This document shows, in pieces, positions 2,191 through 17,531 of a stretch of 31,879 nucleotides of DNA. The stretch spans positions 1 through 31,879 of the IMG/VR virus record IMGVR_UViG_3300049734_000489. One strand, 5' to 3'. Both the position numbers and the translations under genes were made by a program. The notes under the pieces were generated by a model, which was given only the letters and a program-made list of their open reading frames with translations, ran no database searches and was not told the DNA's origin. Each line of letters begins with the position of its first letter. Position 1 is the first letter of the stretch. The stretch comes from a virus.

Positions 2191-2298
2191 TTAATCGAAA
2201 TCGCCTCGCAGGAACTTGAACCAGCGGCACATGCCGATCGTCGCGAGGATGCTCGCCAGAATCCAGGTGACGACCACCCAACCCCACCACTCCATCAT
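2191..2298 (-). CDS. 35-residue single-pass membrane protein
   Basis: This very short gene begins with two ATG codons at 2298; the first overlaps the stop of the vWA gene as ATGA. The product (MMEWWGWVVVTWILASILAT at its N terminus) is one transmembrane helix followed by a short basic tail ending in KFLRGDFD, predicting a cytoplasmic C terminus. Single-helix proteins of this size are common in phages as small inhibitors or membrane tethers. Its coupling to the vWA gene suggests a functional link. Confidence 0.55.
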   Translation of the reverse strand: MMEWWGWVVVTWILASILATIGMCRWFKFLRGDFD

Positions 2299-2969
2299 GG
2301 CGACCCTTTCGGTGCAGGCAACTGCAACGGATAGAAGCGCCCGGGCAGTGCCTTGCGCCCGGGCGCACGCTGTTCACGTCGCCAGCGGCTGATACTGTCC
2401 GAGGTAGTACGGAAGCCGGCGATGACGCCCTCGCGCGTCGGCGAATAGCTCAGACTGTTGAACATGCCGACGCCCATGTTCTCGCCGGTCTGCCAGGACT
2501 CGAGCTCGGCGCCGAGGTAGGCGAATACCCACCCGTCGCGTTGCTTCTCCCGGACGCGCGCGCGCACCTTGTCGAGCGTGGCCCACTTCGGGCTGGCGTT
2601 CTCGTAGCCGTCGGTCTGGATGACTACCAGCGCATGATCCTGCGTTCGCACCGAAGGCTCGAGATCCGAGATGGCCGACAGGACGGCGACGAACAACGGC
2701 GTGTCGCCTCGAGGCCTGTAGGCCTGGCGGGCGATCGCGTTCGTCTCGTACGTCAGGCTCGAGTCGAACAGGACGTTCAGCTCCAACTGGCCGTCATCGC
2801 CGGTCCCGAACTCCACTACGCGTACCGAGGTCTTCGGTTGCCCGACCTGCTGATGCAGCAGCGTGTTGAGCCCCTGCAGCGTCGGGCCTGCGATCGTCTC
2901 CATGCTCGCCGAGCGATCGACCAGGATCAGCACCCAATCAGTCCAGTCCAGCAACGGCATCTCGGTCAT
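2295..2969 (-). CDS. von Willebrand factor A (vWA) domain protein
   Basis: The 224-residue product is a single vWA domain with a complete MIDAS metal site: DRSAS (D18, S20, S22), GDT (T90) and QTDG (D120). vWA domains are metal-dependent protein-binding folds that in bacteria often pair with AAA+ ATPases, chaperones or tellurite-resistance-like modules. The ATG at 2969 overlaps the stop of the nuclease gene as ATGA, and the gene ends in a 4-bp overlap with a tiny membrane protein. A basic segment near residues 194-205 follows the core domain. No signal peptide is present, so it should be cytoplasmic. The partner is unknown; J-domain and nuclease neighbours are candidates. Confidence 0.85.
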   Translation of the reverse strand: MTEMPLLDWTDWVLILVDRSASMETIAGPTLQGLNTLLHQQVGQPKTSVRVVEFGTGDDGQLELNVLFDSSLTYETNAIARQAYRPRGDTPLFVAVLSAISDLEPSVRTQDHALVVIQTDGYENASPKWATLDKVRARVREKQRDGWVFAYLGAELESWQTGENMGVGMFNSLSYSPTREGVIAGFRTTSDSISRWRREQRAPGRKALPGRFYPLQLPAPKGSP

Positions 2970-3745
2970 ACCAGTACCCCTTCGCCGCGGACGCTGACGC
3001 GCGGCGGCAGACCCGTCAGGTCGCAGACATGGGCGTGGTCCCACACCGCGCCGCACTCGAGACACGGACCGTGCTTGCCGTGGCAGGCGAAGTCGCCGTC
3101 GAGCACGCGCAAGGAGATCTGACGCGCCTCGTCATACATTGCGGACCAGCGCTCCTCGGGATGCTCGATGTCGAAGATCTCGACGCTGCGGCTGACCTTG
3201 TTCAGCACCACATAGGTGAAGCGCTCCGGCCAGTCCGCTTGCTGCTCGCCGACGGCCCACGAGTACAGGCAGGGTTGCCACGCGTCGCGCTCGGCACGCT
3301 TCTGCGACCACTTGCCCATCGTGGTCTTGAAGTCGAACACGCGCCGCCCGTCGGTGCTAACGAGGTCGACGAAGCCTATCGTCGGCGCGCCCCATGCCAG
3401 TCCCGTTTCGAGTCGAAATTCCCACTCGCTCTTGCCCGCGAGGCCGAGCTCCATCACCTTGTCGAAGAGCGCGAGCCCGACGCCGGTGAGCTGCGGACTG
3501 GCGTCGGCGCCGAGGTACATGGCGACGGCATCCTTCCAGGCCGAGCGGAACTCGCGCTCGCCGTCGCCGCCCTTGTAGTGCACGTCGAGGCCATGGTGCA
3601 GTGCCGACCCGAACAGCATCGGTTCCGTCGGGTCGACGGCGAGACCGGCGATGTAGCGCGCGTAGAACTCCGCGGGGCACTGCTGCCAGCACAGAAAACG
3701 GCTCGCCGACCAGTGGTCGAACGGCAGCACCTTCTGTTTCTTCAT
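2966..3745 (-). CDS. RecB/Cas4-like PD-(D/E)XK nuclease
   Basis: A 259-residue nuclease of the PD-(D/E)XK superfamily (PF12705-like). Visible motifs are H51 in GSALHHG, D127 in IGFVDL, the FDFK core (D138, K140) and the QxxxY motif in AWQPCLYSWA. Cysteines at C19 and C23, and again at C221, C228, C231 and C241, resemble the split Fe-S clusters of Cas4 and AddB-type enzymes, though the exact spacing differs. It probably acts as an exonuclease on DNA ends in recombination or replication. There is no CRISPR array nearby, so a spacer-acquisition role is not suggested. ATGA overlaps on both sides place it in a tight operon with the coiled-coil and vWA genes. Confidence 0.85.
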   Translation of the reverse strand: MKKQKVLPFDHWSASRFLCWQQCPAEFYARYIAGLAVDPTEPMLFGSALHHGLDVHYKGGDGEREFRSAWKDAVAMYLGADASPQLTGVGLALFDKVMELGLAGKSEWEFRLETGLAWGAPTIGFVDLVSTDGRRVFDFKTTMGKWSQKRAERDAWQPCLYSWAVGEQQADWPERFTYVVLNKVSRSVEIFDIEHPEERWSAMYDEARQISLRVLDGDFACHGKHGPCLECGAVWDHAHVCDLTGLPPRVSVRGEGVLV

Positions 3746-3942
3746 GGGCGTGAACCTGCCTGGAACACGTCACGTTTGGTGTCGCGCACGAGCTGCAGCA
3801 CGCGTCGCCGATAGCTGAAGAAGTCAGCCTGAGTGCGCTCGGCCAGCCGCGCGTACTCGTCGCAGCGCCGCTCGAGCATGCGGATGTGCTCGTGCAGCGC
3901 CTCGTATTCGCTGATGGGAATCGTCATGTACTCGTCGCTCAC
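3742..3942 (-). CDS. Small coiled-coil protein
   Basis: The 66-residue product is almost entirely helical with strong heptad character (EHIRMLERRCDEYARLAERT), a likely coiled coil. It overlaps the upstream J-domain gene by 4 bp (ATGA) and the downstream nuclease gene by 4 bp. Its position between a chaperone-like and a nuclease gene suggests an adaptor, but there is no direct evidence for function. Confidence 0.6.
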   Translation of the reverse strand: MSDEYMTIPISEYEALHEHIRMLERRCDEYARLAERTQADFFSYRRRVLQLVRDTKRDVFQAGSRP

Positions 3943-4496
3943 GCCAGCGCCCCCATGAGTTCTTTCAAACGGTCATAAGCGGTGCGGATGCGAATGAAGT
4001 CAGACGTGTTGCCGCCCATGTCCGGGTGGTGCGTCATCGCCAGCGTGCGGAACGCCGACGTGACCTGCGTCATCGTCACCGGCCACTCGAGCCCGAGGTG
4101 CATCAGCCACAGATGCACCGCGTCGCGCGGATCGAGCACCGTCTCGCGCGGAATGCCGCCCGCGGACGCAGGACCGGCAGCACCAGCTCCAGACGGAACG
4201 CCCATGCAGCTATCGAAGTGGCACTCGTACGTGGGCTCGCTGCCCTCGATGTTCATCGGGCGCCGTTTGCCGCCCGGCGTGGACTCCCAATACACCTTCT
4301 CGTGGCACGCCTTGCACGTGCTCACACGCTGCCGATTGCCAAGCGAGTCAGTGATCCACTCCTGCGCCGCACAACTATCGAAGTGCGAGTGCTGCTCGTC
4401 GTCGTCGTCGAACGGAAACGCCTTCGCGCTGTTGTACGGCGAGGTGCCCCACCAGATCCTGGAGCGGCAGTTACGACACGTGCCCCAACCCGCCAT
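3939..4496 (-). CDS. Zinc-binding protein with C-terminal J-domain (DnaJ-like)
   Basis: The 185-residue protein has two related Cys/His modules, CRNC...HFDSC (C7, C10, H38, C42) and CKAC...HFDSC (C61, C64, H93, C97), each a likely zinc site, then a Gly/Ala/Pro linker, then a C-terminal J-domain (residues about 137-182) with the HPD signature at 157-159. J-domains stimulate Hsp70 ATPase; phage and viral versions can recruit host DnaK to replication complexes. The ATG at 4496 has a Shine-Dalgarno (GGGAGG) and follows the inverted-repeat element directly, so a promoter inside that element may drive it. Domain order (zinc first, J last) differs from DnaJ itself. Confidence 0.85.
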   Translation of the reverse strand: MAGWGTCRNCRSRIWWGTSPYNSAKAFPFDDDDEQHSHFDSCAAQEWITDSLGNRQRVSTCKACHEKVYWESTPGGKRRPMNIEGSEPTYECHFDSCMGVPSGAGAAGPASAGGIPRETVLDPRDAVHLWLMHLGLEWPVTMTQVTSAFRTLAMTHHPDMGGNTSDFIRIRTAYDRLKELMGALA

Positions 4497-8879: not shown

Positions 8880-9047
8880 CTACGCTGCCTTCTCAGGCTT
8901 CAGGCACGGCCGCGGCGGTAGCGGTAGCTCGAGGCGTGCCTTGATGAGCCACACCAGGAACCACTTGGCTGGCACGCCTTCGAGCCTGGCGCGCTCCTTG
9001 ATGACGGCATCCTCGGTGTCGGGCACGTAGAGCGTGTAGCTCGGCAT
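8880..9047 (-). CDS. Ribbon-helix-helix-like small DNA-binding protein
   Basis: The 55-residue product has the layout of an Arc/CopG-type ribbon-helix-helix: a short beta strand (YTLYVPD) followed by helix 1 (DAVIKERARLEG), a turn, and helix 2 (AKWFLVWLIKARLE). The ATG at 9047 lies between the XRE regulator and the early genes, and the gene abuts the zinc-ribbon gene with no gap. Two of these could bind DNA as a dimer and regulate the early promoter. A Pro-rich C-terminal tail is present. Confidence 0.55.
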   Translation of the reverse strand: MPSYTLYVPDTEDAVIKERARLEGVPAKWFLVWLIKARLELPLPPRPCLKPEKAA

Positions 9048-9094
9048 GCCTGCCAGTCTGTGCAGGCACCTGGTGCCGCGGACAGATCAGAAAA

Positions 9095-9349
9095 TCAAGT
9101 TGACGAGGACTGTGACGCCTGCAGTACCGCGGGGCGCACACCCAGCGCCTTCGCCAGCCGCCGCACGCTCGCCGGACGGATCTCGCCGCTGGCCTCGGCC
9201 TTCATGACCGTCTTGCGCGATACACCAGCACGCCGGGCCAGCTCAGCCTGCGAGTACGCCCGATCCAGTCTCAGTGCTCGAAGACGAGGGACAAGCACGC
9301 GTCCAAAGATGATCACGAGTGGGACATCGATCGAACCAGTCCCACTCAC
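9095..9349 (-). CDS. XRE-family helix-turn-helix regulator (Cro/CI-like)
   Basis: The 84-residue protein carries a standard XRE HTH: RLRALRLDRAYSQAELARRA (22-41) then GVSRKTVMKAEAS, and the supporting helices RRLAKALGV. It has no C-terminal peptidase or dimerisation domain, so it looks more like Cro or a short CI-type regulator. I chose the GTG at 9349, which has GGAG six bases upstream; an in-frame GTG at 9394 would add 15 residues without a Shine-Dalgarno. It is the first gene of the leftward early operon and faces the PAS gene across a 227-bp region containing palindromes that are its likely operators. Confidence 0.85.
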   Translation of the reverse strand: MSGTGSIDVPLVIIFGRVLVPRLRALRLDRAYSQAELARRAGVSRKTVMKAEASGEIRPASVRRLAKALGVRPAVLQASQSSST

Positions 9350-9411
9350 GTCCCACTCCGGTCCGCGCCGGCATGCCGTCGACGCGCCGTTCACGATCCG
9401 TTAAACCATTG

Positions 9412-9429
9412 TTAAGACAGGTGTCATAA
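9412..9429. promoter_or_regulatory. Operator-like palindrome TTAAGACAGGTGTCATAA
   Basis: The 18-bp site is symmetric at 14 positions (TTA-GACA--TGTC-TAA), the size and form bound by XRE dimers. It lies 63 bp upstream of the XRE start and 148 bp upstream of the PAS start. Extra TGACA half-sites follow at 9441 and 9449. Binding by the adjacent XRE protein is inferred. Confidence 0.6.
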
Positions 9430-9494
9430 ACCCAGGTTGGTGACAGATTGACATAGCCAACGCGCCCGGGGGGCGGCAGAATGGGGATAAGGCC

Positions 9495-9510
9495 TCGAAC
9501 GGCCGTTCGA
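9495..9510. promoter_or_regulatory. Perfect 16-bp palindrome TCGAACGGCCGTTCGA
   Basis: A fully symmetric 16-mer about 67 bp ahead of the PAS gene start, distinct in sequence from the 9412 operator. It may be the binding site of a second regulator (the PAS or RHH protein) or a hairpin in the PAS-gene leader. Confidence 0.55.
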
Positions 9511-9576
9511 TTCCCGCAGTGCAGCGCGCGCCCCGCACACGCGCTGCTGTTCATCGACACCACAGGGGGCTAGCGG

Positions 9577-10608
9577 ATGTCGCAGATCGTTGACCTGCAA
9601 GGGGGCGCGCGAGGCTATGCATTCGTCTCAGGGGCGATCGACACCCAGGAATCCGTGGTGCGCTCGCTGCGAAACACGTTCCGTGAGAGACCCATAGTGG
9701 CCCGCCCGCGCCAAGAGCACGCCCCACACCTGATCCGCCTGACGTGTTCGATCACGCCCAGCGGGCACATCGTCAGCCCGAATCAGATGATGACGGTAGC
9801 GCTCGGCTACTCGCGCGAGGAGCTGGAAGGAGCCACCGTGGGCGCCCTGCTGCGGCCTGGCGAGAACGTCCGCGAGACGGAAAGCGACATCTTCCGCAAG
9901 TTCGACGCCGTGCGTAGCGGCGAGACCGCACGCGAGACGTTCTCGAGCTTCATGATCGCCAAAGGCGGGGCGCGCGTGGAGGTCACTTCGAGCGTCGCCT
10001 GGAACAGCCTCTTCGAACGGTGGGACATCGTCGCCGAGGTCGACGCCAACCGCATGCCATCCCACCCGCAGTTCGCCACGCCGCTCGATCGCGTCCCGAT
10101 GCTCGAATGGCTCGTCGCACAGCAGCAGCAACGTCTGCGCGAGCTCGCGCTCCAGGTTGAAGACCGCATGGCGTCAGACGCACAGGAACGGCATCTGCGC
10201 AGCGTGGCGCGCGACATCGTGCACGAAACACTACTCGACTACGACGCCGAGCACCCGATTACCCCGTTGAAGAAGGCCGATCGGGGTGAGCACCACGGCG
10301 GCGCCCCGCGCAAGTACGACGATCCCGAAGAGGTTGTTCGACAAGCCGCGGCACTGATGGCCAGCGCAGATGACTTTTGGGGCATGACCGTGCAGGATGT
10401 GTGCGACGGGCTCGATCCGAAACTCACCCGCAACCAGCTCATCGAGTACCTTGTGCGCGCCGGCCGCATGCGCAAGGCCGAGAAGGGCAAACGCGGCGAC
10501 TCGCTCAAGGAAACGCTACGGGTGCTTGGCCGCGAGGCACTCGAGCGCCTGACCGTGATAGCGATCGCCGCCACCAACGTCACAGTTGGCGTCAACCTGA
10601 TTTTCTGA
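9577..10608 (+). CDS. PAS-domain protein with winged-helix-like C terminus, candidate lysogeny regulator
   Basis: The 343-residue protein has a PAS-like domain at about 50-155 (ITPSGHIVSPNQMMTVALGY, then EELEGATVGALLRPGE, FDAVRSGETARETF, and a closing strand VEVTSSVAW), a helical linker rich in Gln, Leu and Arg (175-215), and a C-terminal region (245-310) with helices TVQDVCDGLD and TRNQLIEYLVRAG resembling a winged helix, followed by a basic loop and a hydrophobic end. PAS domains sense ligands, redox state or light, or mediate dimerisation. It is rightward, facing the XRE gene, with the excisionase gene 39 bp downstream. I infer a signal-responsive regulator of induction. No kinase, GGDEF or other enzymatic output domain is visible. 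Confidence 0.65.
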   Translation: MSQIVDLQGGARGYAFVSGAIDTQESVVRSLRNTFRERPIVARPRQEHAPHLIRLTCSITPSGHIVSPNQMMTVALGYSREELEGATVGALLRPGENVRETESDIFRKFDAVRSGETARETFSSFMIAKGGARVEVTSSVAWNSLFERWDIVAEVDANRMPSHPQFATPLDRVPMLEWLVAQQQQRLRELALQVEDRMASDAQERHLRSVARDIVHETLLDYDAEHPITPLKKADRGEHHGGAPRKYDDPEEVVRQAAALMASADDFWGMTVQDVCDGLDPKLTRNQLIEYLVRAGRMRKAEKGKRGDSLKETLRVLGREALERLTVIAIAATNVTVGVNLIF

Positions 10609-10618
10609 TGTCGACGCC

Positions 10619-10644
10619 GGTCAGCCCCGGCAGGCAGGCTGACC
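10619..10644 (+). promoter_or_regulatory. Hairpin immediately upstream of the excisionase start
   Basis: GGTCAGCC (10619-10626) and GGCTGACC (10637-10644) are perfect complements around a 10-nt loop. The stem ends three bases before the ATG at 10648, so the folded RNA would cover the ribosome binding region (only CAGGCAGG is available). It could act as a translational control element or as a protein-binding palindrome. Confidence 0.5.
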
Positions 10645-10647
10645 ACT

Positions 10648-10944
10648 ATGGCCGACGTGCTCAACGCCTTGATCGATCAGTTCGCTGATACCGTCGCACG
10701 CCGCGTCATCGAGCGGATCGACGAGCACCTCGAGGCTCGAGGCGGCGGCGTAGCGCAGGACGCATATCGCGTCGATCAGGCAGCCCAGGCGCTCGGCCTG
10801 TCTGAGGGCGAGGTCAGAAAGCAGATCGCCACCGGGCAGCTAGGCCACAAGCGCGTGGGACGAGCAGTGCTCGTCCCACGGTCAGCGATCGATGAGTTCC
10901 TGGCGTCGGAGCCAGTTCAGCTATCGAGCAAGCGCGGCGCCTGA
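10648..10944 (+). CDS. Excisionase-like HTH protein
   Basis: The 98-residue protein has a helical N terminus (about 1-32) and then a MerR/HTH_17-type DNA-binding domain: AYRVDQAAQALGLSEGEVRK (39-58), QIATGQLGHKRVGRAVLVPR and the closing helix SAIDEFLAS. This is the excisionase (Xis)-type fold. Its 3' end overlaps the 3' end of the integrase gene by 24 bp on opposite strands, so xis and int transcripts would be antisense to each other there. Location between the regulator and integrase fits control of excision. Confidence 0.75.
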   Translation: MADVLNALIDQFADTVARRVIERIDEHLEARGGGVAQDAYRVDQAAQALGLSEGEVRKQIATGQLGHKRVGRAVLVPRSAIDEFLASEPVQLSSKRGA

Positions 10945-12072
10945 CAGAATCCCGCTCATCAGGTCGGCAGCCTCGCGACTCGTCTCCTTGAGCAGATGGC
11001 CGTACGTGTCGTTGGTGATGCTCATGCCGCTGTGCCGCAGGATCTTCGACACCATCCATAGCGGCACGCCCTTCGCGAGCAGCAGCGACGCCGTCGTGTG
11101 CCGCAAATCGTGCAGGCGCAGCCGTCGCAGACCGCGCTCCTTCAGGAACGCGGGAAAGCGATGGGTGATGTTGTCCGGCTCGAGCGCCGTGCCTGTGGTG
11201 CTGGTGAACACGTACCCATCATCGGCATAGTGGTGCCGAAGCTTCTGCACATCACGCTGCGCCAGGAGCGCCTCGGCTACGAATTCGGGAAGGTCGAGCG
11301 TGGCGATGCTCGCGTCGGTCTTCGGCGGCAGATCCAGCAGCCCAGTCTCGCGGTTGACATTGGTCTTCCGCCGCCTGGTGATGCGCTGGAGCTGGCTCGC
11401 GATCGTCAGCGTACGCGCGTCGAGATCCACGGCTGCCCACTTCAGCCCGAGTAGCTCACCGCGACGGAGGCCGAGGCCGAGCTTGGTGATGTACAGCGCC
11501 TCGTGCTCATCGCCGCGCACCTCCTCCAGGAACCGCAACGCCTCCTCACGCGTCCACGGGTTGATCTTGGACCTGGTGGCCGCCGGCGGCGACACCAGCG
11601 CGGCGTAGTTCTTCTCGACCAGCTCCTCGGCTTCGGCCTGCTTGAGGATGACGTTCAGCGTCGAGTGAGCGTTGCGCACGGTCTTCGCCGACAGGCCGCG
11701 ATCCCTCATCTCGCGGTGCAGCTTCTTCACGTGGTTGGCCCTCACGTCGGCGAGTCGGACGCCGCCAAGGATCGGCACGATGTAGCAGCGGATGTTGGTG
11801 TCGTTGGCGTTCCACGACTTCGGGCGCAGGCGCTCGGCAGCGTCCTGGAGCCACGCTTCGGCGTACGCCTTGACGAACACGTCGCGTGGTGGTGGTAGTG
11901 GCTTGTCCTGCTCGACAGCCAGTTGAAGCTCGAGCAGCTTTTTCTTGACCTGATCGGTCGGGACGTTGAACGAGCGGCGCTTGCCGTCGATCATCATCTC
12001 GATTCGGCTGCGACCAGGGCCGATCTCACGGACGGAGCCAGCGCCGTGTGCGCGCTTGGGCTTACTCGTCAT
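10921..12072 (-). CDS. int: Tyrosine recombinase (phage integrase)
   Basis: The 383-residue protein is a three-domain tyrosine integrase. The N terminus (AHGAGSVREIGPGRSRIEMM) resembles arm-binding domains, a SAM-like core-binding domain spans about 65-150, and the catalytic domain shows R203 in LGLRRGEL, K251 in LPPKTDAS, H321 and R324 in HDLRH, H347 in LRHSG and the nucleophile Y357 in NDTYGHL. It should recombine attP (12453-12497 core) with the host tRNA-Asn gene. The ATG at 12072 was chosen; a GTG at 12081 is in frame. It overlaps the coiled-coil gene upstream, so the two are coupled. Confidence 0.95.
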   Translation of the reverse strand: MTSKPKRAHGAGSVREIGPGRSRIEMMIDGKRRSFNVPTDQVKKKLLELQLAVEQDKPLPPPRDVFVKAYAEAWLQDAAERLRPKSWNANDTNIRCYIVPILGGVRLADVRANHVKKLHREMRDRGLSAKTVRNAHSTLNVILKQAEAEELVEKNYAALVSPPAATRSKINPWTREEALRFLEEVRGDEHEALYITKLGLGLRRGELLGLKWAAVDLDARTLTIASQLQRITRRRKTNVNRETGLLDLPPKTDASIATLDLPEFVAEALLAQRDVQKLRHHYADDGYVFTSTTGTALEPDNITHRFPAFLKERGLRRLRLHDLRHTTASLLLAKGVPLWMVSKILRHSGMSITNDTYGHLLKETSREAADLMSGILSGAALAR

Positions 12073-12301
12073 CGGAGTCACCCGGGATCAGCACGAGATC
12101 TTCGCCCACAGGCGTGGCGCCCATCGCCTTGGCGATCAGCCCGACGATGTCATCGAGCTGGGCGTCGATCAGATCGAGACGCTCCTCGACTCCATCGAGG
12201 CGCTCATGGAGAGCGGTGAATTCGGCCACGACCAGTTCGGTCAGCGGATCTGGCGTCGGCGTGGGCCGTGAATGTGACCGCTTGCTAGAGTTTCGTGTCA
12301 T
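12062..12301 (-). CDS. Small coiled-coil protein cotranscribed with integrase
   Basis: A 79-residue acidic protein with a strong heptad stretch (EFTALHERLDGVEERLDLID and on to DDIVGLIAKAM) and an acidic tail ending DSDDE. The ATG at 12301 has GAGGAG nearby. It overlaps the int start and is the first gene after the predicted int promoter. It may form a dimer that modulates the integrase, but no homolog is recognised. Confidence 0.65.
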   Translation of the reverse strand: MTRNSSKRSHSRPTPTPDPLTELVVAEFTALHERLDGVEERLDLIDAQLDDIVGLIAKAMGATPVGEDLVLIPGDSDDE

Positions 12302-12452: not shown

Positions 12453-12497
12453 TGGCTCCGCGACCAGGATTCGAACCTGGAACCTACCGGTTAACAG
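12453..12497 (-). other. attP: attP core: 3' part of a tRNA-Asn(GTT) gene
   Basis: On the minus strand these 45 bases are the 3' half of a tRNA from the anticodon loop onward: loop CTGTTAA with anticodon GTT, anticodon-stem strand CCGGT, variable AGGTT, T-arm CCAGG-TTCGAAT-CCTGG, acceptor strand TCGCGGA, discriminator G and encoded CCA. The 5' half is absent, since the bases beyond 12497 do not continue a tRNA. This is the expected form of a phage attachment site that restores the host tRNA-Asn gene on integration. The integrase gene begins about 380 bp away. Confidence 0.9.
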
Positions 12498-16451: not shown

Positions 16452-17531
16452 CTAGCGGACGGTCGTGCCGGCCTCGAGCGCGCTCACGGCGGCGACCGTC
16501 CATGCCGTGCTGGTGGCGGGATCGGTTTCGTACAGCTGCCGGAAATACTGAGCCGACATGACCAGGTTTTGCGCCGTGCCCTCGTTGGTGGTGGCGCCGC
16601 TCTTGACCGTCAGGCCGAGCGAGCCGGTGCCCGTATCGTTGTTCTGTCCATAGGCCAGGACTTCGCAGCAATTGACCGTCCACGAGCCGGCCGGTACATC
16701 CTCGAGCGTGTACAGGTCGCGCGTACCGACCGTCGCCGAGTAGACGTAGTCGGTCATCGATGGCGGCAGCTCGTCGACTTGCGACCAATTGGCGCCCGAA
16801 TCCGTTCCGCCGCGCGTGAGAGCCGTGGTGCTGCCCGCACCGTTCGGTTTCAGCAGATAGATTCTGCCATCGCCGATCTGGCCATTGTTGATGGTACCTG
16901 CGATGTCATTTATGGCGATATCGTCAAATGCGACGTAACTACCGGGGTTAGCCATGGTTGTAGCGCCCGAGGCTGTGTGACCGAGCCTCAGTTCCTGCAC
17001 ATTCGCGTTTGCGCTCGCGACGTTATCGCCTGAGAAGTTGATGAGCCGAGCACCATCTAACCAGACCTCGGTTATACCGGCCGATGGACTGGTGATCTGA
17101 CTGCGCCAATCGATCAGATGCCACGCGTCAACTGACATCGAAAGACTGCTGGTGCCCAAGAGCGTCCCAGCAGACGATGACTGAAGTCGGGCGCGAATGA
17201 GACCTGAGTTGCAATCATATGTTAGGCAATGCTGCGCACTACTTGCTGAGTCATAGAACGAAGCGAAGACCACCTCGGCCGAGATGACTGTCGGATGGAA
17301 ATAAACACCGAAACGTACCCAGGTCTCGGTTTTTGATGCAGCCAAGTTAAACCGCTGGTATGAAGGGTTCCAACTAGTGGCCGTCGTATGTGTGACTTTC
17401 AGGCAATACGATCCGCTACGCGGGTTAGGCGTAGCAGTTACAAGGCCGAGCGTGGTGCTGGACCCGATTACAGAAATGCCCGACTCGGCGATATCGCCCG
17501 TCTCATAGCCACACGTCAGTAGGCGTGTCAT
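16452..17531 (-). CDS. LamG/concanavalin-like tail protein, receptor-binding candidate
   Basis: The 359-residue product looks like a jelly-roll lectin domain in its first 210 residues: paired strands such as SGSYCLKVTHTTATSWNPSY, ETWVRFGVYFHPT, AWHLIDWRSQI and TEVWLDGARLINFSGDN, ending FDDIAIND, the typical closing strand of a LamG-like domain. The remaining 140 residues (DELPPSMTDYVYSATVGTRD and onward) form a second beta domain of the kind seen in phage fibre proteins. It is in the tail-fibre position. Its middle, about 16,830-17,500, is visibly AT-richer than the genome, which suggests horizontal exchange of a host-range gene. Confidence 0.65.
   Translation of the reverse strand: MTRLLTCGYETGDIAESGISVIGSSTTLGLVTATPNPRSGSYCLKVTHTTATSWNPSYQRFNLAASKTETWVRFGVYFHPTVISAEVVFASFYDSASSAQHCLTYDCNSGLIRARLQSSSAGTLLGTSSLSMSVDAWHLIDWRSQITSPSAGITEVWLDGARLINFSGDNVASANANVQELRLGHTASGATTMANPGSYVAFDDIAINDIAGTINNGQIGDGRIYLLKPNGAGSTTALTRGGTDSGANWSQVDELPPSMTDYVYSATVGTRDLYTLEDVPAGSWTVNCCEVLAYGQNNDTGTGSLGLTVKSGATTNEGTAQNLVMSAQYFRQLYETDPATSTAWTVAAVSALEAGTTVR

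Follow-up and report, generated by a model that had tools for sequence, protein, structure and literature searches.

A PAS-domain gene behind a LexA-type box in the predicted lysis-lysogeny switch of a phage that probably infects uncultured Chloroflexota

The complete 31,879-nt sequence of virus record IMGVR_UViG_3300049734_000489 (referred to as the window) was analyzed, with a focus on a set of regulatory genes and candidate control sites next to its integrase gene (Table 1). The open reading frame (ORF) at the center of this region, named pas herein, is present as the initial annotation had described it, and gene calls and profile searches bear out its placement at a lysogeny-switch position, divergent from a Cro/XRE gene and beside xis and int. 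The pas gene is transcribed away from xre and is followed on the same strand, after a gap of 39 nt, by xis and then by the convergent integrase gene. The XRE protein matches HTH_3 with an E value of 1.7e-9, scored on the enclosing ORF, and its GTG start is suggested by the ATG at which the homologous gene of a relative begins. A Pfam search with the product of the first leftward gene gave zero matches; an ORF at 8893–9141 was considered for this gene and discarded as lying in the wrong frame, the conserved frame being that of the 55-residue ORF. The 22-bp block upstream of xre is probably the promoter or control region of that gene. A consensus scan for sigma-70-like promoters returned none that were convincing. 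A perfect 8-bp dyad (GGTCAGCC...GGCTGACC, 10616–10650), which is also found in the relative, sits just before the xis start and is a possible hairpin or operator.

Table 1. Coordinates of genes, protein domains, and candidate control sites in and around the switch region of the window
Feature	Coordinates	Strand	Evidence or remark
First leftward gene, 55-residue ORF	8880–9047	-	Conserved in relative
Left operator-like site, inverted-repeat arm	9086–9117	-	39 nt before leftward ORF
xre, Cro/C1-type HTH	9095–9349	-	84 aa; HTH_3
22-bp block GATCCGTTAAACCATTGTTAAG	9395–9416		Identical in both loci
Middle operator-like site	9423–9452	+	Between xre and pas
LexA-type SOS box TCGAACGGCCGTTCGA	9495–9510		82 nt before pas start
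pas	9577–10608	+	343-residue protein; ORF and translation, homologues, codon-position bias
PAS domain, residues 45–157	9709–10047	+	Profiles, AlphaFold model, Foldseek, VIA
C-terminal helical domain, residues 245–323	10309–10545	+	Model; weak VIA matches
Right operator-like site, other arm	10578–10609	+	Overlaps pas 3' end; 39 nt before xis
xis, excisionase family	10648–10944	+	TIGR01764, E 1.9e-10; HTH_17
Tyrosine integrase	10921–12081	-	Convergent with pas-xis
attP core, 3' end of tRNA-Asn(GTT)	12454–12497	-	44-nt exact match, G240

Relatives of pas were identified on only two viral contigs (L003 and L004), with 58% protein identity to the window. These contigs are 99% identical to each other, and all statements on conservation compare two independent loci, namely the window and this near-identical pair (the relative). 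Across the 329 codons compared between them, differences number 89, 83, and 153 at the first, second, and third positions. We consider pas a genuine gene because it has homologues at 58% identity and because the differences are concentrated at third codon positions, an excess that would be expected for a protein under purifying selection. The most conserved parts of the protein are the C-terminal domain (66% identity) and the PAS domain (62%). No relative of pas was found in the annotated phages searched, a scan of bacterial genomes returned generic PAS stretches only, and the 29 genomes from the probable host class that were searched with a profile yielded a single generic PAS stretch. Three Rhizobium plasmid records were set aside as candidate relatives, the match being confined to a stretch of the PAS region.

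When the window's first 12.5 kb was compared to 12.5 kb of L004, similarity spanned positions 8937–10716, with none detectable outside. A serine recombinase with Resolvase and Recombinase domains (L003:7325–9043) takes the place of the window's tyrosine integrase. Since the flanks lack similarity and the type of integrase differs, the switch module, which runs from the small ORF through xre and pas into the beginning of the gene in the xis position, appears to travel as a unit. The whole module would then move between otherwise different phages that use different types of integrase.

Profile searches and structure prediction agree on a PAS domain in the pas protein, as had been proposed for residues 55–150. 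The PAS_9 profile scored 18.4 bits with the window protein (E value 2.6e-3) and 25.7 bits with the N-terminal part of a relative (E value 1e-5 for the relatives), both under the curated cut-off of 27, and TIGR00229 matched the window protein with an E value of 9e-4. An AlphaFold model of the full protein was built from a three-row alignment and has a mean pLDDT of 55.8, which is low confidence. In this model, residues 51–160 have an average pLDDT of 68–84 when taken in blocks of ten, and their strands and helices, with a five-stranded sheet, follow the order of a PAS fold. A Foldseek search of the PDB returned many PAS domains, with E values from 3e-5, and VIA-align superposed residues 45–157 on solved PAS domains with Z scores of 12.8–14.3 and ~100 residues aligned. 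Taking profiles and model together, we regard the PAS fold as settled. Two further helices of the full-length model (residues 169–195 and 201–225) are consistent, at low confidence, with the helical linker of the initial annotation. Inspection of alignment A1 by eye revealed neither a LOV cysteine motif nor the FixL-type haem histidine of the F helix. The haem PAS protein FG214 (10jx), a one-component transcription factor, likewise has a PAS fold in a single-chain regulator (VIA Z score of 12.9); unlike FG214, the pas protein lacks that histidine by eye and has an output domain that showed no recognized sequence family. Ligand sensing is plausible, and the domain would serve to dimerize the pas protein, possibly gated by a bound cofactor or metabolite.

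Modeled alone from a two-sequence alignment, the C-terminal domain has a mean pLDDT of 75.3 and folds into four helices, the last of them long. A winged-helix-like C terminus had been suggested, with the HTH at residues 270–300, and is not supported by this shallow, two-sequence model, which is all-helical, with no wing strands; no winged-helix structures occur among its Foldseek and VIA rows. The best resemblances are the top four VIA entries, which are weak (Z scores of 4.1–4.7) and which we take to be TetR-type regulators. Neither Foldseek with this model nor a sequence search of solved structures gave anything significant, and the segment did not match the TetR_N profile. By inspection, the pattern TVxDVC...L(S/T)RNQL..Y resembles a TetR-type HTH. 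The C-terminal domain is possibly a TetR-type HTH, as judged from the model and this pattern. The GerE profile for LuxR-type HTHs was absent from the full protein at E values up to 1 and from the C-terminal segment at E values up to 10.

The dyad that had been reported between xre and pas was confirmed, and it matches a LexA-type box, TCGAAC-N4-GTTCGA, perfectly, with 0.003 exact matches expected per shuffled window. The relative carries CCGAACAGTTGTTCGG at the corresponding position upstream of pas, and in this sequence the dyad is kept despite changes to both bases of the outer pair. The window's box fits the LexA consensus measured in Streptomyces venezuelae, tCGAAC-N4-GNNCGa (PMC9380542). 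No LexA is encoded on the phage record.

The attP core is an exact match over 44 nt to a complete tRNA-Asn gene in the Chloroflexota genome G240, and 36–37 nt of this site are matched in two other genomes of the same class. From the 44-nt match, the host is probably an uncultured member of the Chloroflexota. An actinobacterial host, considered on the basis of a terminase with 42% to Streptomyces phages, was dropped in favor of Chloroflexota after this match. One host contig (G152:C18, L044) has the 3' half of tRNA-Asn but no recognizable complete tRNA and may carry the distal end of a different integrated element. A GAAC-N4-GTTC box precedes the best lexA in each of five Chloroflexota genomes of the probable host class (G240 included), beginning 42–73 nt ahead of the start codon. 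Because boxes of the same type precede lexA in the host class, the LexA of the probable host would be expected, judging by sequence, to use boxes like the one before pas and is predicted to bind it.

No inverted repeat in the region is longer than the one (32 nt, 88%) formed by two operator-like sites, one at each end of the xre-pas gene pair, and the relative has the same two arms. The 28 of 32 matching positions are slightly above the shuffle maxima of 27 and 26 (100 shuffles) by count alone; the weight of the repeat comes from its recurrence at matching places in two loci rather than from the pair count. The arms share their first part across the two loci; their final ten bases are locus-specific, being identical within each locus but not between them. 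The pattern TGAY-N3-Y-TGAY, with GTCA ahead of each copy, has exactly three occurrences in the whole window and another three in 14.5 kb of the relative; each set consists of one copy per arm and one in the xre-pas interval. Each site is oriented with transcription of the gene that follows it (the leftward 55-residue ORF, pas, and xis), and none points towards xre. In both loci, the outer sites lie exactly 39 nt ahead of the flanking start codons. In the search with the operator pattern, a third hit (L014) falls within a large unrelated ORF and was attributed to chance. The conserved peptide VTVGVNL at the C terminus of the pas protein was considered as a degradation tag and set aside, as the same DNA is found in the left arm outside the xre frame; the peptide is conserved because it is encoded by the right-hand DNA site. 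The three sites are placed as would be expected for a shared operator or promoter element of three lytic-side transcripts, presumably bound by XRE.

The balance tips towards pas as a LexA-controlled, xis-linked gene on the inducer side of the switch, with XRE as the repressor. The LexA-type box before pas and the co-orientation of pas and xis 39 nt apart fit an SOS-derepressed induction gene better than a repressor. In a lysogen, XRE would repress the leftward early operon, pas, and xis through the three ~30-bp sites, and host LexA would add a second lock on the pas promoter. DNA damage would remove LexA, and pas would be expressed together with the xis gene behind it. The PAS-HTH protein, as a presumed antirepressor or activator, would then relieve or override XRE at the shared sites and turn on the leftward operon and excision.

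Comparable arrangements are known. Tum of phage 186, AntC of N15, and GfoA/GfhA of the Gifsy prophages are LexA-controlled antirepressors (PMC3121763), and pas would resemble them as a lytic-side regulator gene behind a LexA box that ties induction to SOS. These known SOS-controlled antirepressors are small and have no sensor domains (PMC3121763), which counts against our preferred explanation; unlike them, the pas protein is 343 aa long with a PAS domain, and its gene lies inside the immunity region. Also counting against it are the tentative identification of the C-terminal domain as DNA-binding, the number of independent loci compared, which is two, and the lack of a convincing sigma-70-like promoter in the consensus scan. 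In phage GIL01, the repressor consists of LexA and a small phage protein, gp7 (PMC4551915). Host LexA acting directly on a phage switch promoter, as in GIL01 (PMC4551915), is what the sequence predicts here, although the window differs in having a separate XRE gene. A tentative and rather doubtful extension of the inducer model is an AND-gate in which LexA times the making of the pas protein and a PAS-bound cue licenses its action. If true, the phage would leave only those damaged hosts that are also in a particular metabolic or redox state.

The initial annotation had the PAS protein replacing the repressor and deciding lysogeny in response to a cue. In such a circuit, the PAS protein would be the lysogeny repressor and XRE would oppose it as Cro does; a ligand or the redox state, sensed by the PAS domain, would decide between lysogeny and excision, and the dyad at 9495–9510 would be an operator of the pas protein's own. 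The divergent arrangement beside xis and int is compatible with this, as is the modeled sensor plus HTH-like layout, and the three operator-like sites could be bound by the pas protein itself. We nevertheless find it unlikely, since a repressor that maintains lysogeny would be poorly served by a host-type LexA box ahead of its gene, expression of pas would tend to bring with it expression of the co-oriented xis gene, and the middle site faces pas.

Less likely again is a sensor-activator in the manner of VqmA, in which a cue at the PAS domain leads to direct activation of the left and xis promoters and the LexA-like box is incidental or minor. The PAS-HTH plan is like that of VqmA, and the outer sites keep a constant distance of 39 nt to the start codons downstream and lack consensus promoter hexamers. 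Activator-dependent promoters often lack consensus hexamers. Against this activator stands the box itself, which is a perfect match of the host's own type at a conserved position. The 32-nt inverted repeat flanks the xre-pas pair in both loci and could instead mark a mobile or invertible cassette rather than operators, a highly improbable reading that was rejected because similarity between the loci runs past both arms (8937 to 10716), and against which also stand the same orientation in both loci, the 39 nt from each arm to an outward start codon, and the presence of a further copy of the site in the xre-pas interval.

To our knowledge, few phages have a sensor domain in the lysis-lysogeny circuit, the VP882-type VqmA being the clear case, and we know of no phage with such a sensor gene behind a host LexA box. 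VqmA of vibriophage VP882 combines PAS and HTH domains in a quorum receptor for DPO and is an activator of qtip (PMC8284805, PMC12802170). Like it, the pas protein would be a phage-encoded PAS sensor with a DNA-binding-type domain, as modeled, in a lysis-lysogeny circuit, and the role of the VqmA PAS domain as dimerizer and ligand gate is taken as a parallel. Unlike VqmA, the pas protein lacks a LuxR-type HTH by profile search, and its gene has a LexA-type box ahead of it, is divergent from xre, and is linked to xis. By the GerE-profile test, the pas protein is not a VqmA. In a phage of uncultured Chloroflexota, a PAS regulator with a LexA box ahead of its gene would be a case of two signals converging on a single switch gene; the box and the three repeats are concrete sites for testing this.

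Elsewhere in the window, two leftward early genes have weak profile matches, one to a VWA domain (2295–3065, E value 1.3e-3) and one to a DnaJ domain (3939–4496, E value 3.5e-5), and a PD-(D/E)XK nuclease is encoded beside them at 2966–3745. Between the integrase and the tail genes, the gene at 16452–17531 has a weak match to a polysaccharide lyase (E value 8e-5).
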